64,000 nucleotides of DNA from positions 1,178,001 through 1,242,000 of the forward strand of contig NC_005042.1 in the NCBI RefSeq assembly GCF_000007925.1, given 5' to 3'. The DNA is from Prochlorococcus marinus subsp. marinus str. CCMP1375. GTDB lineage: Bacteria > Cyanobacteriota > Cyanobacteriia > PCC-6307 > Cyanobiaceae. The notes below the pieces were generated by a model that worked only from the letters and a program-made list of their open reading frames with translations, did not search any database and had not been told where the DNA came from. The translations under genes were made by a program, and so were the position numbers. Below, piece by piece: positions 442 through 47,243 of this stretch (position 1 is its first letter; each line of letters starts with the position of its first letter).

Positions 442-1323
442 ATGAAATTAGTAAGAGAAGCGATAATAGAAATAAAAATGGGGATCGACAAGTTTTTCTG
501 CGGGGATTATATACCCATACCAAAGGATTTATATACTAAATACTTTAATTTTAGATCTAAATTAAAAACTAATAAAGAATTGTCAATTGCAATTAATGAT
601 TCATGCATAGAAATTACGCAACGAGTTAGCAGTTATAATTTTGTTACGTGGTATTACCCTTATCAACTTAGATATAGATGCCTAATTCGTTATTTTCAAG
701 GCCTAGAATGGATTGGTAAAATGCTTGCTAGGAATTATAAAATAGATAAAATCTCTCTTAATGCAGGCGATATAGTTATTGATTGTGGCGCAAATGTAGG
801 GGATCTAATGCTGTACTTAGATGGATTAAATCTAAATCTTAACTATTTTGGATTTGAACCTGGTAAATTAGAATTTAAAGCATTGAAAAAAAATGTATCT
901 AATAATAAATTTAATTTAATACCTAAGGTTATTAATAAAGCTCTAGGCAAAAATAATGAAATCAAGACATTCTATTATTGCCCAGAAGAAGCTGACTCTT
1001 CCCTAGAAAAACCTGTGAATTACTCTTCCTCATATGAAGTAGAAGTAGTCAAGCTTGATACATTTTATAATGAGACCTTGCAAGGCAAAAAAATAAAACT
1101 ACTTAAGCTGGAAGCAGAGGGCTTCGAGCCTGAAGTTTTATTAGGTGGTAGAACCCTACTAAAGAATACTGAATATATAGCAGCAGACCTAGGTCCGGAA
1201 AGGGGGCTTACAAATGAATGCACTGTAGCTGAAGTGACAAAGATACTCCAAGATGAAGGATTCTCGATGCTACACTTTAATCATACTTATACAGCTATAT
1301 TTAAAAATATGTTGTTGGTTTAG
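442..1323 (+). CDS. FkbM-family SAM-dependent methyltransferase
   Basis: Class I methyltransferase of the FkbM family, which usually O-methylates sugars in surface glycans. Seen in the 293-aa product: the SAM-binding motif I IDCGANVGD at about residues 113-121, the acidic FEP strand end near 138, and the family-typical LKLEAEGFEPEVL block near 223-235. About 100 residues precede the catalytic fold. The ATG is preceded by a good ribosome-binding sequence (aggaagga), which supports this start. It stands alone between a 215-nt and a 329-nt gap. A distant paralogue lies at 58299-59162. The substrate is unknown. Confidence 0.85.
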   Translation: MKLVREAIIEIKMGIDKFFCGDYIPIPKDLYTKYFNFRSKLKTNKELSIAINDSCIEITQRVSSYNFVTWYYPYQLRYRCLIRYFQGLEWIGKMLARNYKIDKISLNAGDIVIDCGANVGDLMLYLDGLNLNLNYFGFEPGKLEFKALKKNVSNNKFNLIPKVINKALGKNNEIKTFYYCPEEADSSLEKPVNYSSSYEVEVVKLDTFYNETLQGKKIKLLKLEAEGFEPEVLLGGRTLLKNTEYIAADLGPERGLTNECTVAEVTKILQDEGFSMLHFNHTYTAIFKNMLLV

Positions 1324-1652
1324 GGTGGAGATAAATGCATATATAGATTAACTAAATTAGATTTAGAAAACTATCTTATATAAGATAGCTATAAATATTA
1401 ATTTCAGTAAGGAATCAGGTTGAGAAGCTGAATTTTTCATTCAAGTCTGGAGTCATTCTGTTCAATTTACATAGCTACAAAGAGTTTATTCCTAAGTGTA
1501 CAAGAATTTACATCCAGAATCACCTACTGCTTTTAAGAAATTGAGTAATATCTAGACTAAAAGCTAATGTAATTATGAGAGTTAACTTGCTAATAGGTTA
1601 TTATAGAAAAAATTGAGTTTATTATAAGCTCGAAATCAAATTACTAAATCAA
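1324..1652. other. Intergenic region with a perfect 18-nt palindrome
   Basis: A 329-nt A+T-rich gap. I see no coding frame of credible length. The one structured element is a perfect palindrome at 1371-1388 (ctatcttatataagatag), which could form a 7-bp stem with an ATAT loop. It lies 48 nt after the FkbM stop and no T-run follows, so it is a poor intrinsic terminator. A protein-binding site is equally possible. Confidence 0.4.
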
Positions 1653-2312
1653 GTGAGAATAGCCATTGATATAGATAATACTTTGGTAGATTATCGTAGA
1701 ATAGTCATAGAGACTATAATGAATATAAGACCAGATTCTAGGGATTTGGTAAGTAAGATGAAGCGCAAAGATATTGTTGACATAAAGAAACTAATAAAAA
1801 TTAAGTATTCAGACGAAATTTGGCAAGAAGTCCAAGGCCATATTTACTCTCACCGGGGAGACCCCATTACATTCTACCCCTATGCATCTCAAGCTATTAA
1901 GAGACTTGCCGAGAAAGGCTTAGAGATATATATCGTTAGTCATAGAAGTAAATATGGTCTTAAATCAGCCGAAAAGATAAATATTTTAAGAGTGTCCCAA
2001 GAAAGAATTTTTAATTGGATTAAAGATTCAAACTGTTCTGAAAGTATTAAATCAGTTATCTTCTGTGATACTTACCAAGAAAAGATAAAAACTTTATCAT
2101 TTATATCTCCTAGTACAATAGTTGATGACCTTTACCAAGTTCATAATGATCACTTACAAAACAATGCTGAGCAAAAGAATAGAACATTTAATATATTATT
2201 TGGTAACTCGCTACCGAGTGTGCACAAGAGTAATAAGTATATGGAGTTAATATCCTGCAATGACTGGAAAATCATCCTAGAATTACTTATTGATTATTAT
2301 GGTCTCAGGTAA
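1653..2312 (+). CDS. HAD-superfamily phosphatase-like protein
   Basis: Haloacid-dehalogenase-fold hydrolase, 219 aa. Motif I is DIDNTLVDY at residues 6-14 (nucleophile Asp6, general acid Asp8). Motif II is a serine in VSHRSKYG near 94. Motif IV is VDDL near 156. The start is GTG; no ATG fits better, because motif I begins within six residues. The 3' end overlaps the next gene, an APH-type kinase, suggesting translational coupling. Paired with a sugar-kinase-like protein and a split transketolase, it probably dephosphorylates a sugar-phosphate intermediate. The substrate cannot be read from sequence. Confidence 0.75.
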   Translation: MRIAIDIDNTLVDYRRIVIETIMNIRPDSRDLVSKMKRKDIVDIKKLIKIKYSDEIWQEVQGHIYSHRGDPITFYPYASQAIKRLAEKGLEIYIVSHRSKYGLKSAEKINILRVSQERIFNWIKDSNCSESIKSVIFCDTYQEKIKTLSFISPSTIVDDLYQVHNDHLQNNAEQKNRTFNILFGNSLPSVHKSNKYMELISCNDWKIILELLIDYYGLR

Positions 2313-3246
2313 CAGTCAAACGTATCTCTCAATTGAAAATGGTGAAGGCGTTTACAAGAAAATATTTGAACCAAATAGAACCTATTCATATTTACATGAA
2401 TATTTTACATATAAATATTTAGAAAAGATTCCAAATGTAGTACCGAAAATCATAAAAGCTAATAAAGCAAAGCTTACTTTATATTTAGAATATTTTGCTA
2501 ACAAGCCTTCTGAAAACAAAGAGTATGGAGAAAAGTATCTTTTTTTAATAGAGGAGATTCACAATTATATGAAAAAAAGGAATATTGTTTTTACTCTATA
2601 CGCTAAAGAGCCTTTGCAAAACAATCTAATATTATGTGAAACGATAAAAGAAAGAATAAATCTGCACGCTCTTCAATCGAATAGTTGGGATCAAGAGTAT
2701 AAATTAGCAATAAATAGCCTTACTAAGATATTCTCTGAAATTGAACCAAAGCTATGTGAATTAAAGATAGCTTCTCCAATGGTCTTCAATCATGCTGACT
2801 CTGGTTTACATAATACTGTTGCAGATAAAGAAGGAAATCTAAGGTTAATTGATTTAGAATATGCAGGAATGGACTCTCCAATTAAGCAGCACATAGATTA
2901 TTTATTGCATCCTAAAAATGTTAATTACAGTACAGATTCAAGACTATGGAGTGATTACTTTAAAGAAGACTTAATCGCAAAAAATGACCATTGTAATTTA
3001 AACATATATAATTGCTCTTTTGCTCTTAAGTGGGCATTAATAACCTTAAATGAATTTCTAGATATACATTGGGAAAGAAGAGTATACGCTCATCCTATTA
3101 GAGTCCATAAACGTGCTACAATACTTAAAGACCAGCTAAAAAAAGCAAGGATCTATTTAAAAACTGCTCGCCAACTTCTAGACAGTGTTGAACCTCGATT
3201 ACTTTTTACAAAAGACGAAAAGGTTCTCCTATCTAAGTCGTATTGA
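2299..3246 (+). CDS. Aminoglycoside/choline-kinase-like (APH) phosphotransferase
   Basis: APH/choline kinase fold, 315 aa. The catalytic loop HADSGLHN (HxDxxxxN) is near residue 165 and the metal-binding IDLEYAG follows about 20 residues later. Kinases of this type in glycan loci phosphorylate small alcohols or sugars such as choline or anomeric sugar hydroxyls. I chose ATG at 2299; an in-frame TTG at 2290 adds three residues. The gene overlaps the HAD gene upstream and the transketolase subunit downstream (62 nt), so the three are likely co-translated. Function beyond small-molecule kinase is inference. Confidence 0.75.
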   Translation: MVSGNSQTYLSIENGEGVYKKIFEPNRTYSYLHEYFTYKYLEKIPNVVPKIIKANKAKLTLYLEYFANKPSENKEYGEKYLFLIEEIHNYMKKRNIVFTLYAKEPLQNNLILCETIKERINLHALQSNSWDQEYKLAINSLTKIFSEIEPKLCELKIASPMVFNHADSGLHNTVADKEGNLRLIDLEYAGMDSPIKQHIDYLLHPKNVNYSTDSRLWSDYFKEDLIAKNDHCNLNIYNCSFALKWALITLNEFLDIHWERRVYAHPIRVHKRATILKDQLKKARIYLKTARQLLDSVEPRLLFTKDEKVLLSKSY

Positions 3247-3991
3247 CATAGTAAATACAATTTATAAAGCAAAAGGAGGTCACGTAGGAGGATCTTTAAG
3301 TGTCATAGATATACTATCTTCGGTATATGCTTTGAAAGAAAAGTATGACTTTGAATTCGTTCTAAGTAAAGGTCATTGCTTACTAGCTTGGCTAGTTACT
3401 CTTATCCGAATAGGAGAACTTGACAAAAGTATTTTGGAATCATTTTATTTAGATAATTCGTCATTTGGTGGTCATCCAAAGAAAGGTAGTTCGTCTTCCA
3501 TTACTTGGTCTACTGGCTCATTAGGTCATGGTCTCTCAATAACATTAGGGAAAGCATTTGCTTCACCTAATAAGAATTTCATCTGTGTACTGGGAGATGG
3601 TGAAACTAATGAAGGTTCAGTTTGGGAAGCATTAATGTTCATGTCTCAGCACAAGTTAACTAATGTACTTGTTATAATAGATAATAATAAGCAGGAGTCT
3701 TTAACATTTACTGATGATATATTGTCCATAGAAAATCTAAATGATAGGTTAAAAGGCTTTGGGTTAAAAGCGTTGCGTATAGATGGTCATGATCATGAGC
3801 AAATATTAGATAATTTGCTAAGTTATTTCACAGATCGTGATGTGGACAATGTCCCAAAAGTAATAATAGCGGATACCATTAAAGGGAAAGGGATATCATT
3901 TATGGAAAAAGTACCTAAATGGCATCACCGTAAACTTACACCTGAAGAGCATACACTTGCTATAGAAGAACTAACTAATTGCAAGGTATAG
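3185..3991 (+). CDS. Transketolase-like protein, N-terminal (TPP-binding) subunit
   Basis: Thiamine-diphosphate-binding half of a split transketolase, 268 aa. The TPP/Mg2+ motif GDGETNEGSVWEA is at 137-149 with the paired NN at 167-168. GGHVGGSLS (31-39) and LSKGHC (60-65) are the usual substrate-side motifs. The start is GTG inside the end of the kinase gene. The family's N-terminal helix (IDIVNTIYKAK) is read within and just after the overlap, so the overlap looks real. Its partner subunit begins 9 nt downstream. Split transketolases in biosynthetic clusters move two-carbon units to make unusual sugars or branched products. Confidence 0.9.
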   Translation: MLNLDYFLQKTKRFSYLSRIDIVNTIYKAKGGHVGGSLSVIDILSSVYALKEKYDFEFVLSKGHCLLAWLVTLIRIGELDKSILESFYLDNSSFGGHPKKGSSSSITWSTGSLGHGLSITLGKAFASPNKNFICVLGDGETNEGSVWEALMFMSQHKLTNVLVIIDNNKQESLTFTDDILSIENLNDRLKGFGLKALRIDGHDHEQILDNLLSYFTDRDVDNVPKVIIADTIKGKGISFMEKVPKWHHRKLTPEEHTLAIEELTNCKV

Positions 3992-4000
3992 CTATTATTT

Positions 4001-4927
4001 ATGCGAAATTCATTTGCCACTACTCTAACTGAAATTGCTAGGAATGATCCAAAAGTAATACTTCTCGCTGGCGATATTGGTTTTAGAATATTTGATAAAT
4101 TTATAGAAGAGTTTCCAGATAGATTTATAAACTGTGGAATAGCAGAACAGAATATGGTTAGCGTTGCTGCAGGTATGGCATCTGCGGGGAGAAGGCCAAT
4201 TGTTTATACAATCATCCCTTTTCTTATAATGAGGTCTTTTGAACAAATAAGAGTTGACATAGGTATCAATCAACAAGGTGTTGTTCTTGTAGGCGTTGGA
4301 GGAGGATTGGCATATGACAAATTAGGTTCAACACACCATGCTTATGAGGATATAGCCTTAATGAGAACCATTCCTTCCATGAAAATATTTACTCCCATTG
4401 ATCCAGAAGATGTCTCTAATTGTTTTATTCAAAGTTACAATTTAGCAAAAAGCGATATACCTTCTTATATCCGACTTTCTAAAGGTGGTGAACCTAACAT
4501 AACAAGGATAAAAGAAGTATCTAGCAACATTAAATTTCTTAAGTCTAGCAATATAACATCAAACCTCTTCATAACTCATGGTTCTATATCTTCACTTGTA
4601 GTTGATGCTTTAGAAGATAATAAATACAGTAATGTATCCGTTATATCAATTTCAGAGCTTTCCAAAGATAGTCTTCTGAAGCTTACAAATCTTTTGATTG
4701 AAAACTTACAACTTCTAAAGCAAGTTTCAATTGTTGAAGAAACATTTCCTACAGGAGGACTTCACGAAGCTCTTTCCTCAATTCTTATGAAAGAGAATGT
4801 TCCCCTTGGCATAAAACACATATGCTTGGATCATCGCTATATTTTTGATATAAATAATAGAGTCTCGTTGTTGTCAAAGTATGGAATTGAGAAATCTATT
4901 ATTCAAGAAATTGCTTTAAAGAAATGA
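4001..4927 (+). CDS. Transketolase-like protein, C-terminal (pyrimidine-binding) subunit
   Basis: Second half of the split transketolase, 308 aa, with the pyrimidine-binding domain followed by the C-terminal domain. The conserved catalytic glutamate is in GIAEQNM (Glu49), and STHHAYEDIALMRTIP is the family's active-site block. It starts with ATG 9 nt after the N-subunit, matching a heterotetrameric pair. Its stop overlaps the next gene's ATG by 4 nt (ATGA). Being split and inside a carbohydrate island, it is unlikely to be the Calvin-cycle enzyme, which is a single long chain in cyanobacteria. Confidence 0.9.
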   Translation: MRNSFATTLTEIARNDPKVILLAGDIGFRIFDKFIEEFPDRFINCGIAEQNMVSVAAGMASAGRRPIVYTIIPFLIMRSFEQIRVDIGINQQGVVLVGVGGGLAYDKLGSTHHAYEDIALMRTIPSMKIFTPIDPEDVSNCFIQSYNLAKSDIPSYIRLSKGGEPNITRIKEVSSNIKFLKSSNITSNLFITHGSISSLVVDALEDNKYSNVSVISISELSKDSLLKLTNLLIENLQLLKQVSIVEETFPTGGLHEALSSILMKENVPLGIKHICLDHRYIFDINNRVSLLSKYGIEKSIIQEIALKK

Positions 4928-5790
4928 AAATATTAATTACAGGAGCAAGTGGACTTGTTGGAAGGGCATGCCAACGAATTGCATTCTCAGAAAACCACTC
5001 ACTTTCTATAGTTAGTTCAAAGAGTCCAATAAATATAGAAACTAACTATTATGCAAGAATAGAACAGATAGATAAATCAGAAGTCTTTGATCTATTAATT
5101 CATAGTGCCTCAGCAACACCTAACAATTCGAAATTTGATGAAATAAAGTCAATCAATAGAATAATTGATCAAGACTTATGCGATTTAATTAAAAGAGCTT
5201 CTGTAAAACACGTGATCTACATTTCATCAATGGCAATTTACGGCAATATTGATAGTAGCAAAATTGATGAAACTCATTTACCTAATTCGCCAAATAAATA
5301 TGGGGAATCAAAGTTCTATGGGGAAACTATTACTGCAAATACTTGTAGAGAAAGAGGTACCAAATGCTCTGTACTTAGGCTCCCTGGTGTTATATCTCAA
5401 GGAATGCCTAGTGTATTCTTTAAAAGAGCTGTAGCTAATATTGCTTGTGGAGACGCTACAACAATAAGGTCAAACGATTCACTATTTAATAACTGTGTAT
5501 ATGTTGATGATATATACGACACTTGCATATCACTCTATAAAAATCAAAATGAAAGCAGTTTGGTTTTAAATCAGCATTCTAAGGACATTGTTAGGCTATA
5601 TGATTTACTGAACTATATAGGGAAATCACTTAATAAATCTCCCTATATAATTGAATCTACAATGTGTAACCCTTCCTTTTTAATAGAGAATAAGAGCTAT
5701 GATGAATTACTTAAGACTAGAACCGTTTATGATGCTATTGATTCCTTCTTTTCCAATTATGAGATTAGAGCAAGTGGCTCTAACCTCTAA
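4924..5790 (+). CDS. NAD-dependent epimerase/dehydratase (extended SDR)
   Basis: Extended short-chain dehydrogenase, 288 aa. The Rossmann motif GASGLVG is at 7-13, the catalytic serine region is SSMAIYG near 100-106, and the YxxxK pair is in YGESKFYGE near 126-134. It acts on a nucleotide- or phospho-sugar, as an epimerase, reductase or dehydratase; which one cannot be told. It overlaps the transketolase C-subunit by 4 nt, so it belongs to the same operon and probably acts directly after or before the two-carbon transfer. At 288 aa it is slightly shorter than typical GalE (about 340). Confidence 0.8.
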   Translation: MKILITGASGLVGRACQRIAFSENHSLSIVSSKSPINIETNYYARIEQIDKSEVFDLLIHSASATPNNSKFDEIKSINRIIDQDLCDLIKRASVKHVIYISSMAIYGNIDSSKIDETHLPNSPNKYGESKFYGETITANTCRERGTKCSVLRLPGVISQGMPSVFFKRAVANIACGDATTIRSNDSLFNNCVYVDDIYDTCISLYKNQNESSLVLNQHSKDIVRLYDLLNYIGKSLNKSPYIIESTMCNPSFLIENKSYDELLKTRTVYDAIDSFFSNYEIRASGSNL

Positions 5791-5901
5791 TACATTCTTC
5801 CTAAGCATTAGATTTACTAATACTTAATTATGAAAACTTATTCATCGCTACTGCATCTTCAAGCAAAACATCTAATTAAATAGTTTATAAAGAGAAATAC
5901 A

Positions 5902-6678
5902 ATGACAATTATAGAAAATCACTCTTCACTATCATTAGACATTGCGTCTAAAGGTTATTGCATTTTTGATATAGAGAATACCGATAATTACAATGCTTTA
6001 AATGATGTTTTAAAGGATTCTCTTCAACAAGATAATCTTCAGGAATTACATAGTTGTATTAATACACAGGATGTCAATGCAAGCAGGCTTAAGGCATATA
6101 GATCCCTTAATATTTTAAGTAATTGGGAGGAATTATATTTTTCATTAGCCAAAAATAAGATTGAACACTTCCTTGGTCCAGACTTGGCAATACAATCAAA
6201 ACTTAATTTATCTATTCAGATGCCTAAAGATTCAACTTCTGTCTTGCAACTGCATACTGATGCACTCTCAGGTCAATCTATATTTGAATTAGTTTTATGG
6301 GTTCCTTTTACTCCTGCATTTGATTCTAATGCCATGTATATATTTAGGCCTGAGATCTCTAAGATCATGTTATCTGATATGCCAAAACTAGAAAAAGAGG
6401 GAATGAGTAGTCTTTTTAATAAATATGAGAAAGAAGCAACTTTTATAAAGATAGATCCTGGCAAGGCCCTTCTTTTTTCTCCAACAATGTTTCATGGGAA
6501 CATATTAAATATTACTAAATCAACAAGAGTAAGTATAAATTGCCGATTTAAAAATATTTTTACTCACGAAGCTTCTTCAGGCGAACGTAGACTAGGCTCA
6601 TTTTACAAAGTTCTTAAAATGTCAGAAGTGACAAAATTAGGACTATCATATAGAGATGATTTAGTAAGTTTTTTATGA
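5902..6678 (+). CDS. Sporadic carbohydrate cluster 2OG-Fe(II) oxygenase-like protein
   Basis: 258-aa predicted non-heme iron dioxygenase. The HxD facial-triad pair is LHTDA (His118, Asp120), the distal histidine is in TMFHGN (His198), and a 2-oxoglutarate-binding arginine follows (STRVS, about Arg209). From family knowledge it resembles the oxygenase that occurs in sporadically distributed carbohydrate clusters (TIGR04324-like), found next to LIC12192-family proteins. The next gene, overlapping by 4 nt, is just such a protein, which supports the call. It probably hydroxylates or oxidises a sugar intermediate. Confidence 0.75.
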   Translation: MTIIENHSSLSLDIASKGYCIFDIENTDNYNALNDVLKDSLQQDNLQELHSCINTQDVNASRLKAYRSLNILSNWEELYFSLAKNKIEHFLGPDLAIQSKLNLSIQMPKDSTSVLQLHTDALSGQSIFELVLWVPFTPAFDSNAMYIFRPEISKIMLSDMPKLEKEGMSSLFNKYEKEATFIKIDPGKALLFSPTMFHGNILNITKSTRVSINCRFKNIFTHEASSGERRLGSFYKVLKMSEVTKLGLSYRDDLVSFL

Positions 6679-7091
6679 ATGTATTTGGTTACGTAACTTC
6701 TAGACAATTTAGTAATTTTGTCCTACCTGTACCTGCTCAAAATGCTTGCCTAAGGGAATATGCAAGATCTATTGATGCCACATATACCCTGCCGCCTTTA
6801 GAACATTATTTTGATAATTGCTATATGCAATTATTTACAGTAATTAATAGTCTTTCAGAAGCTGACATCCTTGCGATCTATTCTGTTTCAATGTTACCTG
6901 AAGATAACACAAAGTTAGAAAATATTGTTGACTTAGTTTTTAATAAAAAAGCTTCTTTCTATTTTATTCTAGAAGCTAAAAAAGTCAGTTTCTGGAGTGA
7001 ATTATCACCAGTTTTATTTTCTTACAGGTTGCGTAATATTCTTGACGAAATGGAACAGCCTACTTTAAAGTTTTTAAGAGATATAAGATAG
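6675..7091 (+). CDS. LIC12192-family sporadic carbohydrate cluster protein
   Basis: 138-aa protein resembling, from memory, the TIGR04323/LIC12192 family, with an N-terminal FGYVTSRQF block, a VPVPAQN-like block (VLPVPAQN at about 16-23), LPPLEHYF and a C-terminal region rich in aromatic residues. The family has no established biochemical role. It is known for occurring in patchily distributed LPS or exopolysaccharide clusters, originally noted in Leptospira. It overlaps the oxygenase stop by 4 nt (ATGA), so the two are almost certainly co-translated and may work as a pair. Confidence 0.75.
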   Translation: MNVFGYVTSRQFSNFVLPVPAQNACLREYARSIDATYTLPPLEHYFDNCYMQLFTVINSLSEADILAIYSVSMLPEDNTKLENIVDLVFNKKASFYFILEAKKVSFWSELSPVLFSYRLRNILDEMEQPTLKFLRDIR

Positions 7092-7112
7092 ATTTTGCCT
7101 CAAGCTAATCTA

Positions 7113-7754
7113 ATGGCTAGATATCCTAAGCCTAATCGATCAAATTTACTTAAAGTACGTTCAGAAGTTACTTCAGAAGACTGTGAAATAGCAAAGCAAT
7201 TTGATTATGAATATTTTGATGGCCCTCGCCGTTTGGGTCTTGGAGGTTATAAATATATAGAGGGTTATTGGTCAGATGTTGTTACTGACTTTATTGATTT
7301 TTATAAGTTGGATTCACATTCATCAGTACTAGATGTTGGATCTGGGAAAGGTTTTATGCTTTTTGATTTCTGCAGATCTATTCCAAATCTTCGAATAAGA
7401 GGTCTTGAGTATTCAAATTATTGTATAAATAATACATTACCTATTATAAGGCCTCATATAGATAGTGGCTGTTGTTCTTCTCTACCCTATGAGAGTAATA
7501 GTTTTGATTTAGCAATAAGTATAGCTACTATTCATAATCTAGATATAAATGGAGTAAAACGCTCATTGCGTGAACTGATTAGGGTTAGCAAAAATAGTTT
7601 TATAAAGGTGAATGGATTTAGAACTAAAGAAGAGGCAGCCAAATTAAATGAATGGAATCTTGTTGCTAAGACTATTCTTCATGTTGATCAATGGCATGAG
7701 CTTTTTGACGAAGTTGGATACGATAGGGAATGGGATTTTTTTGTTCCTTGCTAA
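7113..7754 (+). CDS. SAM-dependent methyltransferase
   Basis: Class I methyltransferase with motif I VLDVGSGKGFML at about residues 72-83, an acidic strand-2 end (GLEYS), and a post-motif PYESNSFDLAISIATIHNL typical of the Methyltransf_11 group. I start at ATG 7113; a TTG at 7095, 3 nt after the previous stop, would add six residues. It has the position expected of a tailoring enzyme acting on the product of the oxygenase/LIC12192 pair. A small hairpin (stem 7743-7749/7755-7761) spans the stop codon but lacks a T-run. The substrate is unknown. Confidence 0.8.
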   Translation: MARYPKPNRSNLLKVRSEVTSEDCEIAKQFDYEYFDGPRRLGLGGYKYIEGYWSDVVTDFIDFYKLDSHSSVLDVGSGKGFMLFDFCRSIPNLRIRGLEYSNYCINNTLPIIRPHIDSGCCSSLPYESNSFDLAISIATIHNLDINGVKRSLRELIRVSKNSFIKVNGFRTKEEAAKLNEWNLVAKTILHVDQWHELFDEVGYDREWDFFVPC

Positions 7755-7805
7755 AAGGAACATATCCTCTCCGACTAAAATGACCATTATGCTTAAATCT
7801 ATTCA

Positions 7806-8918
7806 ATGAAAAAAGTACTTATAATTGGTGGTGGATTTGCAGGATGTGCAGCGTCTCACCTCATAAATAGAGACCTAAAAAACTATGAAGTCACCCTAGT
7901 AGAGAAATCTGTTTACTTAGGGGCAGGGAACAAAACCCAGTACTATGGAGGGCATCCTTATACATTTGGTCCAAGGCATTTTCTTACTCAGGATAGAGAA
8001 GTTTATGAGTATCTGAATGCATTAGTGCCAATAAGGCTTTGTCCTGAGCATGAATTTATTACTTATGTTTCATCAGATAGTAATTTTTATAATTTTCCAA
8101 TTAACGAAGATGATATACCAAGCATGCCTGACAAGGAAAATATATATAAAGAGCTTAAGAGCTTAAACGATGTTTCCAGTGCACTGAACTTTGAGGAATA
8201 TTGGATTGCCTCAGTAGGAAAAACTCTTTATGGCAAATTCGTTAATGATTACAATAAAAAAATGTGGTTGATAGATTGTAATAGTGAATTCGATACTTTT
8301 AAATGGTCCCCTAAAGGGATTGCATTGAAGAAGGGACCAAGAGCTGCATGGGATGTTGCGATTTCTGGATACCCCTATGACAAAAGGGGTTATGATCCCT
8401 ATTTCGAAATTGCAACAGAAAATACAAAGGTTCTTTTAAATACGGATATTGAGGTTTTTGATATTCCTTCGAAAAGGGTATTTTTTGATGGTGACTGGCA
8501 CTCTTTTGATCTAATAATCAACACTATTTCTCCAAGTGTGATTTTCGAAAATGTCTTTGGAGAGCTGCCTTTCATAGGGCGAGATTTACTTAAATTTGTC
8601 TTACCATCTGAATTTGTATTTCCAAAGAATGTTTATTTTATCTATTTTGCAGGGCAAGAGCCCTTTACAAGACTTGTCGAATACAAAAAATTTACTCACC
8701 ACAAATCACAGCATTCATTGATAGGGATGGAAATTCCTTCACTAAATGGAAGCCATTATCCACTACCAATGAAAAAATGGCAGGCTGTCGCGGACAAATA
8801 CCACAAATTACAACCAGATGGCGTTTTCTCTATTGGAAGAGCAGGATCTTATAGATATGAAGTCGATATTGATGACTGTATTAGACAAGCAATGGATCTT
8901 GTAAAAGCAATATCTTAA
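7806..8918 (+). CDS. glf: UDP-galactopyranose mutase-like flavoprotein
   Basis: FAD-dependent enzyme of the UDP-galactopyranose mutase family, 370 aa, close to the usual 365-400. Seen: the dinucleotide-binding GGGFAG at 8-13, an FGPRHFLT segment, the substrate-side FTRLVEYKKF near 287-296, and a C-terminal GRAGSYRYEVDIDDCIRQAM that matches the family's FAD-closing block. Glf converts UDP-Galp to UDP-Galf, the donor for galactofuranose in surface glycans. GalE at 36631-37674 could supply UDP-Gal. Sequence drift from classical Glf means another UDP-sugar mutase activity is possible. Confidence 0.8.
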   Translation: MKKVLIIGGGFAGCAASHLINRDLKNYEVTLVEKSVYLGAGNKTQYYGGHPYTFGPRHFLTQDREVYEYLNALVPIRLCPEHEFITYVSSDSNFYNFPINEDDIPSMPDKENIYKELKSLNDVSSALNFEEYWIASVGKTLYGKFVNDYNKKMWLIDCNSEFDTFKWSPKGIALKKGPRAAWDVAISGYPYDKRGYDPYFEIATENTKVLLNTDIEVFDIPSKRVFFDGDWHSFDLIINTISPSVIFENVFGELPFIGRDLLKFVLPSEFVFPKNVYFIYFAGQEPFTRLVEYKKFTHHKSQHSLIGMEIPSLNGSHYPLPMKKWQAVADKYHKLQPDGVFSIGRAGSYRYEVDIDDCIRQAMDLVKAIS

Positions 8919-39079: not shown

Positions 39080-40336
39080 ATGCCCTTTTCTTCAAAAGCA
39101 ATAACAAGCTTCGGCAAGGACATGCTACTAAAAAAGCTAAGCAAGAACATAGCTATTATTCTTGTATTTACTCATAGCATTTGTTCATCAGTTTATAGTA
39201 TAGAATCAAAAAAAAATGAAGAGGTTATAAACAATCAACCTAGCATTGATTACTTAGACAAAATACCAAAAGGAGAATATCTATTAGGGCCAGGAGATAG
39301 TATTACGATAATATTTAATAGTGCTAGCAAACTATCGACACGACAGACTGTTGATGGGGATGGGACAATCTTTACATCACGACTAAAACGTATATATGTT
39401 GAAGGCCTTAGTATAAACGAATTAACAAAGCTTCTCGAAAGAAAGTATAGCGAATTCCTAATAGAGCCAAATATATCTATTTTAGTTACTACATATAGGC
39501 CTATTAATATCTATGTCCAAGGTGAAGTTCAAAATCCAGGTGTCTATTTAATTAAAGGAGGTGAAATAAATTTAAGTCTAGGGAATGTAAATGATCCTTT
39601 TGGAGATGATTTTTTAAATCCATCAGATCTTACAGAGGATCAGAGAACACTTATTGAGAAATTTCCTGATGAGTATGATGAAAGATTTCAAAAGAAAAAA
39701 ACTGTTTATGATGGTCCTGTCGCCCCTAAGCTGTTCGATGCAATTAAGAGAGCAGGAGGTATTACTCTATATTCTGATCTAAGGAGTGTGGAAGTTGTAA
39801 GGAAGCAAAGTATAAGTAATGGTGGTGGAAGAATAAGGGCTAGGCTTGACTTTCTCAGTGTTTTAGAGAATGGAGAAGGTGCTGAAAATATACGCTTACG
39901 TGATGGTGATATTATTAGGATTAATAAGAGTGAGTTAGCATTAAATGAGCAATTAAAAATAGCTACTAGAACTAATCTTCATAGCAAGTTCAACAAAGTA
40001 TTTATTTCAGGCAGAGTTTACTATCCAGGGGCAAAAGTAATCAATAAATCAGCTACTTTGAATGATCTAATTGTACTAAGTGGTGGGATGAAACCACTTA
40101 AAGGTAAAGTAACATTTGTTAGGTTTCTGAGCGATGGTACATTGGAAAGAAGAAGTATAAGGTACAGAAAAAATGCGAAAGACAACACTTATCATAATCC
40201 TGTCCTAAGAAGCGGTGATATCGTTAATGTAGAAGATAGTCTAATAGCCAAAACAAGTGTTGGAATATCAGAAATTACTAATCCTTTTCTTGGTTTATAT
40301 TCAACCTATAAAGTAATCGAGTCTATAACCAATTAA
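39080..40336 (+). CDS. Wza-type polysaccharide export protein (SLBB domains)
   Basis: 418 aa. A hydrophobic N-terminus (about 19-40) acts as signal or anchor; an in-frame ATG at 39122 would give a shorter, more usual signal peptide. The Poly_export domain (GEYLLGPGDSITIIF to SILVTTYRP) precedes two SLBB-like repeats (INIYVQGEVQNPGVYLIKGG near 148 and KVFISGRVYYPGAKVINKSATLNDLIVLSGG near 310). It forms the outer-membrane exit channel for polysaccharide. No lipobox cysteine is obvious. A co-polymerase partner lies at 53308-55065. Confidence 0.88.
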   Translation: MPFSSKAITSFGKDMLLKKLSKNIAIILVFTHSICSSVYSIESKKNEEVINNQPSIDYLDKIPKGEYLLGPGDSITIIFNSASKLSTRQTVDGDGTIFTSRLKRIYVEGLSINELTKLLERKYSEFLIEPNISILVTTYRPINIYVQGEVQNPGVYLIKGGEINLSLGNVNDPFGDDFLNPSDLTEDQRTLIEKFPDEYDERFQKKKTVYDGPVAPKLFDAIKRAGGITLYSDLRSVEVVRKQSISNGGGRIRARLDFLSVLENGEGAENIRLRDGDIIRINKSELALNEQLKIATRTNLHSKFNKVFISGRVYYPGAKVINKSATLNDLIVLSGGMKPLKGKVTFVRFLSDGTLERRSIRYRKNAKDNTYHNPVLRSGDIVNVEDSLIAKTSVGISEITNPFLGLYSTYKVIESITN

Positions 40337-41465: not shown

Positions 41466-42125
41466 ATGAATAAAGATTATTCTAATTTCATTAGCTTATT
41501 TTACGATAATCCATTATATCTACCTGAATCAATGGGGCTTAGGCCAGCATTATTTCTAGATAGAGATGGTGTGATAATTAAGGATTGCCACTTCGTTTCT
41601 AATCAAGATGACGTGATTTTAGAGAAAGGTTGTAAAGATTTTTTCAAGGAAGCTAAGTCTCTAAACATACCAATAATAATTATCACAAATCAATCAGGTA
41701 TATCTAGGGGTTATTTTGGGTGGGATAATTATATTGAGGTTACGAACAAAATGATCGAGTTAATAGGAGAAGAAAACTCTATAATTGGCATATATGCAAA
41801 TGGCCAAGGACCAGAATCTCCTTTGCATAGCTGGAGGAAACCAAGTCCTAATATGATATTAAATTCAGCAATAACACTATCAGTTGACTTGAGTAAATCA
41901 TTAATGATAGGAGATAGAATAAGTGATCTTCAATCAGCTGCAAGAGCTGGAATAAAGAGCCTAATTCATATTAAAACTGGTCATGGAAAAGATGAGAGAA
42001 GTGATATCTTGAGCCAAACAGATGGACAGCATAGATTTATCGACAAAAATAATAGGTCAGACTTAATATTAATAGATAATCTAGAATCCTTCCCTTTTTA
42101 CAAACTATCTTCTTTTAATGAATGA
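41466..42125 (+). CDS. HAD-IIIA phosphatase, GmhB-like
   Basis: 219 aa. Motif I FLDRDGVI, motif II TNQSGISRGYF, then WRKPSPNMI and MIGDRISDLQSAARAG are the order seen in D-glycero-D-manno-heptose-1,7-bisphosphate phosphatase GmhB and histidinol phosphatases. The zinc-loop cysteines that normally precede the RKP motif are absent: the loop reads YANGQGPESPLHSWRKP. The enzyme may still act on heptose bisphosphate or on another sugar phosphate. It overlaps the LhgO gene by 8 nt, and GmhA-, HldE- and HddC-like genes follow. Confidence 0.8.
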   Translation: MNKDYSNFISLFYDNPLYLPESMGLRPALFLDRDGVIIKDCHFVSNQDDVILEKGCKDFFKEAKSLNIPIIIITNQSGISRGYFGWDNYIEVTNKMIELIGEENSIIGIYANGQGPESPLHSWRKPSPNMILNSAITLSVDLSKSLMIGDRISDLQSAARAGIKSLIHIKTGHGKDERSDILSQTDGQHRFIDKNNRSDLILIDNLESFPFYKLSSFNE

Positions 42126-43353
42126 AATGATAAATAGTGAAACTAAAGACATAATAATTATAGGAGGTGGAATGGTTGGCCTATCTTTAGCTTATCAATT
42201 AATAGAAAGGAGAATAACAAAAAGCATTACAATACTAGATAAAGAAAAAGCGCTTGGTCTTCATACATCTGGACGCAATAGTGGAGTACTACATGCAGGT
42301 ATATACTATAAGCCTGGATCACTAAAAGCAAAAGTTAGTGTAGAAGGTGCAAGACGGCTTTGTGAATGGATTGAAGAAAGAAATCTTGCCATTAATAAAT
42401 GCGGTAAAGTAGTAATCCCAACCAAAGCCAACCTCGATTGTCAGTTAGATCTATTAAAAGAAAGGGGAGAATTGAATGGAGCAAAAGTTGAATTATGGGA
42501 CGAGAACCAATTAAAAGCTTTTATCCCACAAGCTGTGTCCAAAAGTGGGCGGGCACTATGGAGCCCTAACACAGCAGTTGTAAAGCCTCTTGAAATTATT
42601 AAATGTTTAGAAAGAGAGTTAACCTCTAAAGGAGTAACAATAAAAAAAGGTATAAAAATCATTAATGTTAATACAAAAGAAAAATTAATAACTACTTTTA
42701 ATAAAGAAAATCTTTCTTATAGTTATGTATTCAATTGTGCAGGACTTGGTGCGGACAGAATCAGCAAATTATTTGACGTTGGGAATGACTATACAATCAT
42801 TCCATTTAAAGGTATTTATTGGAAATTAAAGCACGAATCCTCAATAAAAATCCCATCAAATCTTTATCCAGTTCCAGACTTATCAGTACCTTTTTTAGGA
42901 GTTCACTTTACTCCAGATACTGAAAGAGTTCCATCAATATATATTGGCCCAACCGCTACACCTGCATGGGGGAGAGAAAACTATGACGGCATTAAAGGGT
43001 TAGAACCTTCGGTCGCTATTTCAAGTATTGATTTGCTTTCTAGACAGTACATCAATAATAAAGGTGGCTTTAGAGGATATGTTCACCAACAAGCTTTACA
43101 ATCATTTCAACCTTTTTTTCTTAAAGCAGCTCAGGAATTGATTCCTTCAATAAGATTCAAAGATATTGAGCCTTGCTCTAAGAGGGGGATAAGATCACAA
43201 CTATTCAACAAAAGAAGTATGAAATTAGAAGATGACTTTTTATGCATTAACTCTGATAACAGCTCTCATATTCTTAATGCTGTTTCCCCTGCATTTACAG
43301 CAAGTTTTGCTTTGGCTGATTTAATTATAGATAGCTCAATTTTACTAAATTAA
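42118..43353 (+). CDS. lhgO: L-2-hydroxyglutarate oxidase-like FAD enzyme
   Basis: 411-aa DAO-family flavoprotein. IIIGGGMVGLSLAYQL at about 12-27 binds FAD; HTSGRNSGVLHAGIYYKPGSLKA is the LhgO signature, followed by CGKVVIPT and a GIRSQLF-like end. LhgO oxidises L-2-hydroxyglutarate to 2-oxoglutarate. It is odd inside a sugar-phosphate operon and overlaps the GmhB-like gene. It might oxidise a hydroxy-acid side product or a sugar acid instead; the sequence alone cannot decide. Confidence 0.85.
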   Translation: MNEMINSETKDIIIIGGGMVGLSLAYQLIERRITKSITILDKEKALGLHTSGRNSGVLHAGIYYKPGSLKAKVSVEGARRLCEWIEERNLAINKCGKVVIPTKANLDCQLDLLKERGELNGAKVELWDENQLKAFIPQAVSKSGRALWSPNTAVVKPLEIIKCLERELTSKGVTIKKGIKIINVNTKEKLITTFNKENLSYSYVFNCAGLGADRISKLFDVGNDYTIIPFKGIYWKLKHESSIKIPSNLYPVPDLSVPFLGVHFTPDTERVPSIYIGPTATPAWGRENYDGIKGLEPSVAISSIDLLSRQYINNKGGFRGYVHQQALQSFQPFFLKAAQELIPSIRFKDIEPCSKRGIRSQLFNKRSMKLEDDFLCINSDNSSHILNAVSPAFTASFALADLIIDSSILLN

Positions 43354-43357
43354 ACTA

Positions 43358-44086
43358 ATGAAATTACCTATAAGAGCACTACTTCTAGCTGCAGGTTTTG
43401 GGACACGCCTAAGGCCACTTACTCTTAACACACCTAAATGTCTAGTAAGTATATCTAATAAGCCGCTATTACATATTTGGTTGGATAAACTAGTGAATCT
43501 AGGCTGTAAATCCACGTTAATAAATACACATTATCTATCCGATCAAGTTAATTCCTCTATAAGAGAATATGATAATAGTAAGATAAATATTTATACAACA
43601 TATGAAAAGACTTTGCTTGGGACAGCAGGTACTTTAATGGTAAATAGAGATTTTTTTAGAGGTTCATTAGGGTTGATTATTCATGCAGATAATATTACAA
43701 ATGATAATCTTGAGGAACTAATCGATACTCACGTCAACAAGTCAAAAGATTCTCTTCTAACAATGCTTACTTTTAAAACAGATAATCCCTCTCAATGCGG
43801 AATAGTAGAAACTAATGAAAAAGGCGTCGTCACTGCTTTCCACGAGAAAACTAAGAATCCTCCAGGATTTATTGCCAATGGTGCCATTTATGCATTTGAC
43901 CAATCATTTCTAGATTTTCTAGATCAAACTCATTTCTCTGGGCAAGACATCAGTAAGGATTTACTCCCAAAGCTTTTGGGAAGGATTCAAACCTGCTACA
44001 GTCAAACTACTTTTTTAGATATTGGTTCCCCCACAACCCTTAGCAGAGCTCAAGAGCTGTGGAAAAAGGAATCTCTCAATGAGTAA
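43358..44086 (+). CDS. Sugar-1-phosphate nucleotidyltransferase, HddC/ManC-like
   Basis: 242 aa, NTP_transferase fold. The nucleotide loop LLAAGFGTRLRPLTLNTPKCLV opens the chain; a catalytic aspartate lies in IHADNIT, and ANGAIYAFD follows near 170. Length and context suggest D-glycero-D-manno-heptose-1-phosphate guanylyltransferase (HddC), but mannose- or glucose-1-phosphate use is equally compatible. It is 4 nt after lhgO and 2 nt before the GmhA-like gene, so it is tightly within the operon. Confidence 0.8.
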   Translation: MKLPIRALLLAAGFGTRLRPLTLNTPKCLVSISNKPLLHIWLDKLVNLGCKSTLINTHYLSDQVNSSIREYDNSKINIYTTYEKTLLGTAGTLMVNRDFFRGSLGLIIHADNITNDNLEELIDTHVNKSKDSLLTMLTFKTDNPSQCGIVETNEKGVVTAFHEKTKNPPGFIANGAIYAFDQSFLDFLDQTHFSGQDISKDLLPKLLGRIQTCYSQTTFLDIGSPTTLSRAQELWKKESLNE

Positions 44087-44088
44087 TA

Positions 44089-44679
44089 ATGCCAATATCA
44101 TTCAATGATTTTACAAATCAATATCTAGATGAACTTAGAAGTGTTTTTACTGAGGGAATAATTCTCTCAATAAAAGAACTCGCAAATGACCTAGAGCATG
44201 CTTGGAATAGTGGTAAAAGAGCTTATATATGTGGGAATGGCGGAAGTGCAGGAAATGCAATGCATATTGCCAATGACTTTCACTATGGTTTAGGTAGCTA
44301 TAGCAAACCTTCCAGGCCTGGGATGAGGTTAATAGCTTTGCCTTCAAATCCAAGTATTGTCACATGTTTAGCAAACGATATAGGTTATGAAAATATTTAC
44401 TGCCATCAATTAAAAGTACTAGCTGAGAAAGATGATCTTTTAATAGTTTTATCTGGAAGTGGAAATTCCCAAAATGTAGTTAAAGCACTTGAATATAGCA
44501 AAGAGATAAATATGAAAAGCCATGCAGTAATTGCATTCTCAGGAGGAAAGTGTAAAGATATTGCTGACAAGGTCATCCATTTACAAACAAATGATATGCA
44601 AATAGCTGAAGACTCTCAAGTCATTATCTTTCATATGTGTATGCAATGGATTGTTCAAAAAAGCTTGGCTTCTAAGTAA
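44089..44679 (+). CDS. SIS-domain phosphoheptose isomerase-like protein (GmhA-like)
   Basis: 196-aa single SIS domain. The phosphate-binding loops CGNGGSAGNAMHIAND and LSGSGNSQNV are intact. Against the E. coli GmhA sequence as I remember it, catalytic Glu65 aligns with Asp, and His180 with Met in the stretch VIIFHMCMQWI. So it is either a divergent sedoheptulose-7-phosphate isomerase or acts on a different ketose phosphate. GmhB-, HddC- and HldE-like neighbours support a heptose-type pathway. Confidence 0.8.
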   Translation: MPISFNDFTNQYLDELRSVFTEGIILSIKELANDLEHAWNSGKRAYICGNGGSAGNAMHIANDFHYGLGSYSKPSRPGMRLIALPSNPSIVTCLANDIGYENIYCHQLKVLAEKDDLLIVLSGSGNSQNVVKALEYSKEINMKSHAVIAFSGGKCKDIADKVIHLQTNDMQIAEDSQVIIFHMCMQWIVQKSLASK

Positions 44680-44692
44680 TCGCTATAATCAT

Positions 44693-46207
44693 ATGAATAC
44701 TAATCAAAGCAGTATTTGCCCTGTAATTGAATTAGATCATGCCGAAGAATACATAGGCTCTGTTGTTGGTTATGGACACTTCAACTCTGTACATACTGGA
44801 CATATAAGGTATTTAAAGCATGCAAAAGAACTTGGTCAAAAATTTGTCGTTGCAATACAAAAACACTTAAGTGGTGACCCCAGAACACATTTCAGCCAAC
44901 TTGAAAGAGCTGAAGGTGTAGCTCAATTAGCCATAGCAGATGCAGTAATACTTTTACCAGATAATAATCTAAAAAAATGTCTTCAAAAATTAAATCCAAA
45001 GTATCTTGTCTTAGGTAAAGAATATGAAAACTCTAATATCAATTATATAAAGGATTCTATAGAGTACTTAAAAGATGAAGGCAAAGAGGTTAAATATCAC
45101 GCTGGAGATATTAATTATGCTTCATCAGACCTTTTGATTAGTTCAGAGTCTGAAATTAAATTCAAGAGGGAAGAGCAATTTATGGATGCTTTAAAAAGAC
45201 AAAAAATTACTAAGAATGACATAATTACTACTGGTGAATCAATAAAGAATTCTCGCTTAATTGTCATTGGAGATTCAATAGTAGACCAATACACTGCATG
45301 TGAGCCTTTAGGAATGAGTGCTGAGGCTCCTGTAATTGTAGTTAAAGAAATGGAACAAAAAAATTTTATTGGAGGTGCAGCAATAGTTGCTTCTCATATT
45401 GCTTCACTAGGTGCTAAATGTGATTTTTTATCAGTAATTGGGAAAGATGATTCAGGGCAATGGCTGCAGAAAAAACTAGAGGAACAATCTGTAAATACTT
45501 ATTTAATCGAAGACTCAACTAGACCAACTACCTTTAAGAAAAGATATGTAGTTGAAAACCAGAAGCTTTTTAGAGTAAGTAGATTAGATGATCATCATAT
45601 CAACCGTAATTGCACTGATAAAATAATCAAAAAGTTATGGGCATTAGCTCCTAAAGCTAATGGAATAGTTGTTTCTGACTTTGTATATGGCGTCATTACT
45701 CCTCAAATACTAAAAGAAATCCACAAGGTGGCTAAAGCCCATGATTTGAAACTATTCGGAGATCTGCAATGTAGTAGTCAAGTAGGTGATATATCAAAAA
45801 TGAAAAATTTCACGCTTTTGTGCCCTAATGAACGAGAGGCAAGAGTTTCTCTCCAAGATAAACAAAGTGGATTAGATGCTGTATGCCAAAAGCTTATGTC
45901 CGAAACGAGAAGTAAAAATATGATCATGAAACTTGGTGCCGATGGTTTCATTGCATATTCCAAAAATAAGAATGGGTCTCTTAGGATTCAAGCATTTCCT
46001 GCTCTATCAGTTAATCCAGTCGATGTAACAGGTGCCGGCGATTCTCTTTTAGCAATTATGGCAGCAGGAATGTGCAGCGATAGACCTCTTATGGAAGTAG
46101 CTGCTCTAAGCTGCTGTGGTGCTTCCTTAGTAGTTGAAAGCATGGGCAATCAACCAGTCACATTAGAATGCATAACACAAAAAGTGATAAAAATTAATCC
46201 ATTTTAA
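44693..46207 (+). CDS. Bifunctional HldE-like protein with reversed domain order
   Basis: 504 aa. The N-terminal about 150 residues are a cytidylyltransferase-type nucleotidyltransferase (GYGHFNSVHTGHIRYLKHAKE, with HxGH). The C-terminal about 310 are a PfkB/ribokinase-type sugar kinase (SRLIVIGDSIVDQY, NFIGGAAIVASHIASLGA, DVTGAGDSLLA with catalytic Asp). E. coli HldE has the kinase first. It would phosphorylate heptose-7-phosphate and activate the product with a nucleotide. I start at ATG 44693; an upstream in-frame ATG at 44651 would overlap the GmhA-like gene. Confidence 0.88.
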   Translation: MNTNQSSICPVIELDHAEEYIGSVVGYGHFNSVHTGHIRYLKHAKELGQKFVVAIQKHLSGDPRTHFSQLERAEGVAQLAIADAVILLPDNNLKKCLQKLNPKYLVLGKEYENSNINYIKDSIEYLKDEGKEVKYHAGDINYASSDLLISSESEIKFKREEQFMDALKRQKITKNDIITTGESIKNSRLIVIGDSIVDQYTACEPLGMSAEAPVIVVKEMEQKNFIGGAAIVASHIASLGAKCDFLSVIGKDDSGQWLQKKLEEQSVNTYLIEDSTRPTTFKKRYVVENQKLFRVSRLDDHHINRNCTDKIIKKLWALAPKANGIVVSDFVYGVITPQILKEIHKVAKAHDLKLFGDLQCSSQVGDISKMKNFTLLCPNEREARVSLQDKQSGLDAVCQKLMSETRSKNMIMKLGADGFIAYSKNKNGSLRIQAFPALSVNPVDVTGAGDSLLAIMAAGMCSDRPLMEVAALSCCGASLVVESMGNQPVTLECITQKVIKINPF

Positions 46208-46295: not shown

Positions 46296-47243
46296 ATGAA
46301 TATTTTAGTAACAGGAGGAAATGGTTACAAGGGTTCTGTACTTGTACCAAAGCTAATTGAGCTTGGTCATCGAATAATATCGATTGACTTAAACTGGTTT
46401 GGTGAATATTTAAAACCTCATCCAAATTTGAAAATTATTAAAGAAGATATAAGGAATATAGAAGACCATCATTTGAAGAATATAGATGCCGTAATTCACT
46501 TGGCTAATATTGCAAATGACCCAGCTGTTGAATTAGATCCAAGGTTAAGTTGGGAAGTAAATGTACTTGCTAGTCAACAACTTGCTGCTAAAGCTAAAAA
46601 GGCCGGAGTGAAGATATTCTTATATGCTAGCTCAGGTAGTGTCTATGGAGTTAGTGATAAGGAAAGAGTGACAGAAGACAATGATTTATTACCAATATCT
46701 GAATATAACAAGACAAAAATGGTCGCAGAAAGGATATTCCTAAGCTATAAGGATGACATGAAAGTATATTGTATAAGACCTGCAACTGTATGCGGCGTAT
46801 CGCCTAGAATGAGATTAGATGTTTCTGTAAATATTTTAACTTACTCTGCTCTAAAAAATGGAGTAATAACAGTTTTTGGCGGTAAGCAGATAAGACCAAA
46901 TATACATATAGATGATATATGTAATGTATATATATTTTTCCTGAAAAACTTTTCAAGAATTGAATCTGGCACATTTAATGCAGGCTTCGAAAATATCTCA
47001 ATACTAGATATAGCAAATATGGTGAAAGAACAGATACCTCAATGTGAAATAAAGGTGACTCCTTCAAACGACCCGCGTTCGTATAGGCAATGTTCAGATA
47101 AATTATTAAGCATTGGTTTTAAGCCAAGCAAAGATGTAAAGACAGCTATATCAGATATAATTTCCGCTTATAAAGTGTCTAAGTTAAACACCGATTCAAC
47201 TTGCTTTTCTGTAAAAAGACTCAAAGAGTTGGATATCAAGTAA
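46296..47243 (+). CDS. NAD-dependent nucleotide-sugar epimerase/reductase (extended SDR)
   Basis: 315 aa. GGNGYKGSVLV at about 7-17, the HLANIANDPAVELDP loop, SSGSVYG, and catalytic YNKTKMVAE near 138. It resembles the WcaG-type group. Following an HldE-like gene, it might epimerise an activated heptose (the HldD step), but it lacks the HldD-specific features I know. A role on another nucleotide sugar is possible. 88 nt separate it from the HldE-like gene. Confidence 0.82.
   Translation: MNILVTGGNGYKGSVLVPKLIELGHRIISIDLNWFGEYLKPHPNLKIIKEDIRNIEDHHLKNIDAVIHLANIANDPAVELDPRLSWEVNVLASQQLAAKAKKAGVKIFLYASSGSVYGVSDKERVTEDNDLLPISEYNKTKMVAERIFLSYKDDMKVYCIRPATVCGVSPRMRLDVSVNILTYSALKNGVITVFGGKQIRPNIHIDDICNVYIFFLKNFSRIESGTFNAGFENISILDIANMVKEQIPQCEIKVTPSNDPRSYRQCSDKLLSIGFKPSKDVKTAISDIISAYKVSKLNTDSTCFSVKRLKELDIK

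Follow-up and report, generated by a model that had tools for sequence, protein, structure and literature searches.

In Escherichia coli, HldE (RfaE) is a bifunctional heptose 7-phosphate kinase and heptose 1-phosphate adenylyltransferase, in which a PfkB-type kinase domain precedes a cytidylyltransferase-like domain. HldA and stand-alone HldC represent a separate-domain version of the same chemistry. The GDP-heptose pathway has HddA and HddC; the kinase HddA is of the GHMP type and has no relation to PfkB. Here we describe a gene at positions 44693-46207 of a 64,000 nucleotide stretch of the Prochlorococcus marinus subsp. marinus str. CCMP1375 genome (NC_005042.1, positions 1,178,001 to 1,242,000; hereafter the window). 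It encodes the same two superfamily domains as HldE, fused in the opposite order. To judge from its sequence the protein would work like HldE, yet by score, domain order and phylogeny it lies outside HldE; it is one unexceptional member of a sister family that is widespread and of which no description was found.

Domain order, motifs and fold

The reading frame starts with an ATG 13 bases past the stop codon of the upstream gmhA-like gene and encodes a nucleotidyltransferase domain followed by a kinase domain, both passing their Pfam cut-offs (Table 1). This agrees with the original prediction of an N-terminal HxGH nucleotidyltransferase and a C-terminal GAGD kinase, the reverse of E. coli HldE, which the same profiles identified as kinase-first. 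The catalytic motifs H34-T-G-H37 and G447-A-G-D450 are conserved across relatives and are shared with HldE. With HxGH and the catalytic Asp D450 invariant, the halves belong to the cytidylyltransferase-like (PF01467) and PfkB/ribokinase (PF00294) superfamilies respectively. AlphaFold2 modelled the two domains with confidence (mean pLDDT 89.5, pTM 0.85). Foldseek retrieved Burkholderia cenocepacia HldA (4e84/4e8y/4e8z, E about 1e-26) as the top PDB match for the C-terminal part, 4E84 being the closest solved fold (TM-score on target 0.83-0.90).

That the order is an artefact of annotation or assembly, with two adjacent genes read through, was rejected and has a negligible probability: the protein is encoded by a single open frame in a complete genome, and 79 of 80 independent loci are fused alike.

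An alternative explanation would be to equate the protein with E. coli HldE, with which it shares both domain families, HxGH, GAGD, the kinase SxEAP and K/R positions, and neighbours that resemble GmhA and GmhB; the curated profiles that it matches best are rfaE_dom_I and HldE. Nevertheless all HldE, HldA and HldC cut-offs are missed, with 181 against 521 bits for NF008454, 211 against 345 for TIGR02198 and 50 against 181.5 for TIGR02199, and the order is the reverse of HldE's N-terminal kinase and C-terminal nucleotidyltransferase.

Phylogeny

All 37 reversed (nucleotidyltransferase-first) proteins group in the kinase tree at 99/100 support, together with one viral single-domain kinase. In the nucleotidyltransferase tree all 37 group at 96/85, together with one long-branched single-domain protein; a clade with the reversed proteins as its sole members was not rejected for this domain (p 0.126). 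The main subclades within the reversed group match between the trees. By its order and its place in a single reversed clade in both trees, the Prochlorococcus protein falls in a nucleotidyltransferase-first kinase fusion family, defined here, which stands outside HldE/HldA and HldC in both trees rather than branching with HldE. Approximately unbiased (AU) tests rejected one clade of reversed and canonical (kinase-first) fusions for the kinase (p-AU 1.7e-75) as well as the nucleotidyltransferase domain (p-AU 7e-7), which also argues against equating the protein with HldE. The canonical fusions are themselves no unit: one clade of them was rejected in the nucleotidyltransferase tree (p 0.0002), and in the kinase tree they interleave with stand-alone HldA. 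The outgroup branches of the kinase tree are very long, which makes its root uncertain; the split between reversed and canonical proteins is independent of that root.

With the joint clade rejected for both domains and the canonical fusions not forming one clade, the reversed order is, on this phylogenetic reading, one old separate fusion and not a domain swap of HldE. The original prediction had offered either a permutation-like swap or an independent fusion of HldC- and HldA-like genes. The former fell with the joint clade. The latter stands with one correction, namely that the parents were not HldA and HldC proper but sister lineages of these. A swap in a common ancestor that predates all sampled HldE proteins is a remote possibility.

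Taxonomic distribution

A profile scan that covered about 85,000 species genomes (GTDB contig collection) identified 376 relatives, 80 of which were kept. Kinase-first order occurs in none of the 80: 79 are nucleotidyltransferase-first and the remaining one (L068) is truncated where its contig ends. The relatives belong to at least eight named phyla, including Cyanobacteriota, Pseudomonadota, Campylobacterota, Spirochaetota, Chloroflexota and Bacteroidota. Among 250 genomes of the same taxonomic order 22 matches were found. Sixteen are reversed proteins of full length, four are canonical and kinase-first, one is truncated by masked sequence and one is divided between two contigs. An apparently huge frame in one genome (G015, locus L017) was rejected as masked N sequence. 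All 17 matches at E 1e-60 among 291 genomes of the phylum are reversed. The reversed order is carried by hundreds of genomes, which by the criterion given with the original prediction refutes the idea that it is unusual. The family is nonetheless poorly described: annotated members are named merely "PfkB family carbohydrate kinase", and a literature search of open-licence PubMed Central (PMC) papers found no description of the reversed order, an absence that is weak evidence.

The nearest named relatives of the locus are Prochlorococcus loci. The distribution among picocyanobacteria is patchy, with two genomes of the same genus lacking the fusion, as expected for a horizontally moving polysaccharide locus. 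Fusions very close to the picocyanobacterial ones were also found on contigs labelled Rhodopirellula (L051) and Blastopirellula (L068), which may be mis-binned metagenome contigs or reflect recent transfer. A SAR324 contig (L070, 2839-5938) carries a tandem pair of nucleotidyltransferase-first fusions, the first with by far the weaker kinase match (73.6 versus 448 bits).

More distant members are WP_149200362.1 (Azospirillum oryzae) and WP_129356083.1 (Solidesulfovibrio carbinolicus), which share the order, the clade in both trees and an adjoining SIS gene. They are 22-24% identical to the Prochlorococcus protein and form a deeper subgroup, with NAQSN/NTQAN-type sequences where the main clade has QCSSQ.

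Twenty genomes were reached via reversed loci. Thirteen of these also have an HldA-type domain over its cut-off and 15 an HldC-type domain, while their reversed proteins score below cut-off. The fusion is thus an additional system in those organisms, and, taken together with the missed cut-offs and the rejected joint clade, this leaves identity with HldE improbable.

Genomic context

The fusion is the fifth gene of an operon whose order, shown in Table 1, repeats across picocyanobacteria. It is followed by the SDR gene, a methyltransferase and glycosyltransferases; a polysaccharide-export gene lies at 39080 and five glycosyltransferase genes are nearby. The operon lies inside a surface-polysaccharide island. 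Its GC content (0.34) is not distinct from that of the window (0.342). A phage origin of the locus was rejected, with no DNA match in phage records and only distant phage and viral matches. The complete 1.75 Mb host genome has the fusion as one copy, with no second HldE-kinase match at E 1e-30.

Table 1. Features of the fusion gene and its operon, with positions in the window
Feature	Position	Strand	Evidence
GmhB-like HAD sugar bisphosphate phosphatase	41466..42125	+	TIGR00213 GmhB 104 bits, cut-off 149.6
L-2-hydroxyglutarate-oxidase-like FAD oxidoreductase	42118..43353	+	NF008726 297.7 bits, cut-off 299; relative in 25/50 loci
HddC/ManC-like sugar-1-phosphate nucleotidyltransferase, NTP_transferase fold	43358..44086	+	PF00483 132 bits; relative within 5.5 kb of reversed gene in 45/50 loci
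GmhA-like SIS-domain sugar-phosphate isomerase	44089..44679	+	SIS_2 68 bits; TIGR00441 gmhA 112 bits, cut-off 209
Bifunctional protein, 504 aa, nucleotidyltransferase then PfkB kinase domain	44693..46207	+	Pfam and NCBIfam scans, AlphaFold2 model, Foldseek
N-terminal cytidylyltransferase-like domain, aa 27-134, HTGH aa 34-37	44771..45094	+	PF01467 (CTP_transf_like) 43.3 bits, cut-off 21, E 5e-11; TIGR02199 49.8 bits, cut-off 181.5
C-terminal PfkB kinase domain, aa 188-487, GAGD aa 447-450	45254..46153	+	PF00294 113.6 bits, cut-off 25.8, E 1.5e-32; TIGR02198 211 bits, cut-off 345; fold match to HldA 4e84
Short-chain dehydrogenase/reductase (SDR), NAD-dependent epimerase/dehydratase-like, predicted to act on nucleotide sugar	46296..47243	+	PF01370 121 bits; heptose_epim 69 bits, cut-off 274.6

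Neighbours were counted over 50 loci with full flanks. A SIS gene was found in 29 and the N-terminal half of a transketolase in 27 of these. In the window itself a split transketolase-like pair (Transketolase_N, then Transket_pyr) is located at 3185-4927, about 40 kb upstream of the fusion, and resembles the transketolase pairs that adjoin reversed fusions in other genomes. Many loci outside the cyanobacteria (for instance L084, L092, L071 and L025) have radical SAM/SPASM genes next to the fusion and the split transketolase, among them nine of 13 Campylobacterota-type loci. A viral contig of more than 115 kb (L129, IMG/VR) contains, at about 968-8197, a cluster that resembles a heptose pathway. 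Searches identified in it an SDR, a SIS isomerase, a split transketolase and a kinase that belongs to the reversed-fusion clade; two further proteins were named by reading their sequences, one as GHMP-kinase-like and one as transaldolase-like.

The operon combines two unrelated types of nucleotidyltransferase, HddC-like and HxGH (44693-45190), a pairing kept in most related loci. The HddC-like protein scores 73 bits against the HddC profile (cut-off 300). The operon also includes the oxidase-like gene.

Predicted function

We consider the protein, with a probability of roughly 0.68, to be bifunctional, an anomeric kinase for a sugar phosphate joined to a sugar-1-phosphate nucleotidyltransferase, in a nucleotide-sugar pathway of heptose type that supplies a surface polysaccharide. 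The two domains with their intact motifs, the HldA-like fold of the kinase half, the recurring operon with its flanking gene counts and the polysaccharide genes nearby speak for this reading, as do the similar gene sets beside the Azospirillum and Solidesulfovibrio fusions and in the viral contig. We infer which reactions take place, in which succession, and with which sugar and nucleotide, along a route that the neighbouring genes support. The GmhA-like isomerase would turn sedoheptulose 7-phosphate, or a closely related ketose phosphate, into an aldose 7-phosphate; the frequent split transketolase fits the supply of such a ketose phosphate. The PfkB domain would then phosphorylate C1 of the heptose or heptose-like sugar 7-phosphate and the GmhB-like phosphatase would remove the 7-phosphate. 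The HxGH domain, perhaps with the adjacent HddC-like enzyme, would add the nucleotide, and the SDR would modify the resulting nucleotide sugar.

Several observations weigh against this assignment. Neither the fusion nor any of its GmhA-, GmhB- and HddC-like neighbours reaches the curated heptose cut-offs. The second, unrelated nucleotidyltransferase blurs the role of the HxGH domain; either the two yield different sugar nucleotides or one of them does most of the activation. Cyanobacterial lipopolysaccharide is largely described as free of heptose (PMC4515613). A search for Glyco_transf_9 heptosyltransferase genes gave matches in five control genomes but none in the host, and a role in inner-core heptose was rejected as unlikely on this ground. 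Finally, residues that are fixed in the kinases of HldA and HldE are replaced.

The latter follows from a comparison of 28 reversed proteins of the main clade with 31 HldA/HldE proteins. HxGH and GAGD are invariant in all 28; the counterparts of K106 and R108 of E. coli HldE show no variation in any group and that of R118 is conserved in the main clade. G27, R31, N55, N59, D120 and Y152 (E. coli numbering) are fixed in 31/31 HldA/HldE proteins and replaced in the main reversed clade, which has a new, invariant Q-x-S-S-Q-x-G segment at aa 359-365. This pattern we read as the same chemistry with an altered sugar pocket. Since R31, N55, N59 and D120 are among the positions replaced, the sugar may differ. 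It is indeed possible, at somewhat less than even odds, that the substrate is a sugar other than manno-heptose, such as a different heptose, an octose or a derivative of a branched ketose, which a dedicated split transketolase would make. Besides the pocket and the new motif, the transketolase half in 27 of the 50 loci, the transketolase-like pair in the window and the normal HldE that some genomes keep alongside the fusion all point this way. On the other hand the transketolase half is near the fusion in only ten of 27 picocyanobacterial loci, and sedoheptulose 7-phosphate, also made by transketolase, would suffice.

The nucleotidyltransferase domain differs as well at residues that are fixed in HldC/HldE (numbering of the aligned E. 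coli domain). The FD of FDxxHxGH is mostly FN, the lysine of VKG (K109) is often lost and the R66-P67 pair is changed or unconserved. These changes, together with the HddC-like gene that lies almost always beside the reversed gene (45 of the 50 loci), would suit a hybrid route, part ADP-heptose and part GDP-heptose, with an active kinase, an HxGH domain whose nucleotidyl transfer is lost or altered, and activation of the sugar by the HddC-like neighbour. No reversed protein in the comparison departs from HxGH or R72, which one would not expect if the domain were dead, and PfkB-type heptose kinases yield beta-1-phosphates whereas HddC uses the alpha form. We therefore regard such a hybrid as unlikely, and prefer the bifunctional kinase and nucleotidyltransferase.

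A heptose-type kinase/nucleotidyltransferase fusion arose at least twice, in opposite orders, which constitutes a convergent fusion of pathway steps. The picocyanobacterial fusion sits in a surface polysaccharide island, though most accounts of cyanobacterial lipopolysaccharide, Spirulina being among the exceptions, have it lacking heptose (PMC4515613). The fusion probably serves to make unusual sugars of cell-surface polysaccharides. Tentatively, and with odds that we put below even, the reversed fusions can be seen as a widespread, functionally undescribed family with a specificity unlike manno-heptose, at the core of a parallel transketolase-isomerase-kinase-nucleotidyltransferase surface-sugar pathway in marine picocyanobacteria, Campylobacterota and at least one large viral contig. 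The family is common, occurs in many phyla, mostly goes by the name "PfkB kinase" alone and often shares a genome with a normal HldE; it therefore probably marks an extra nucleotide-sugar pathway.
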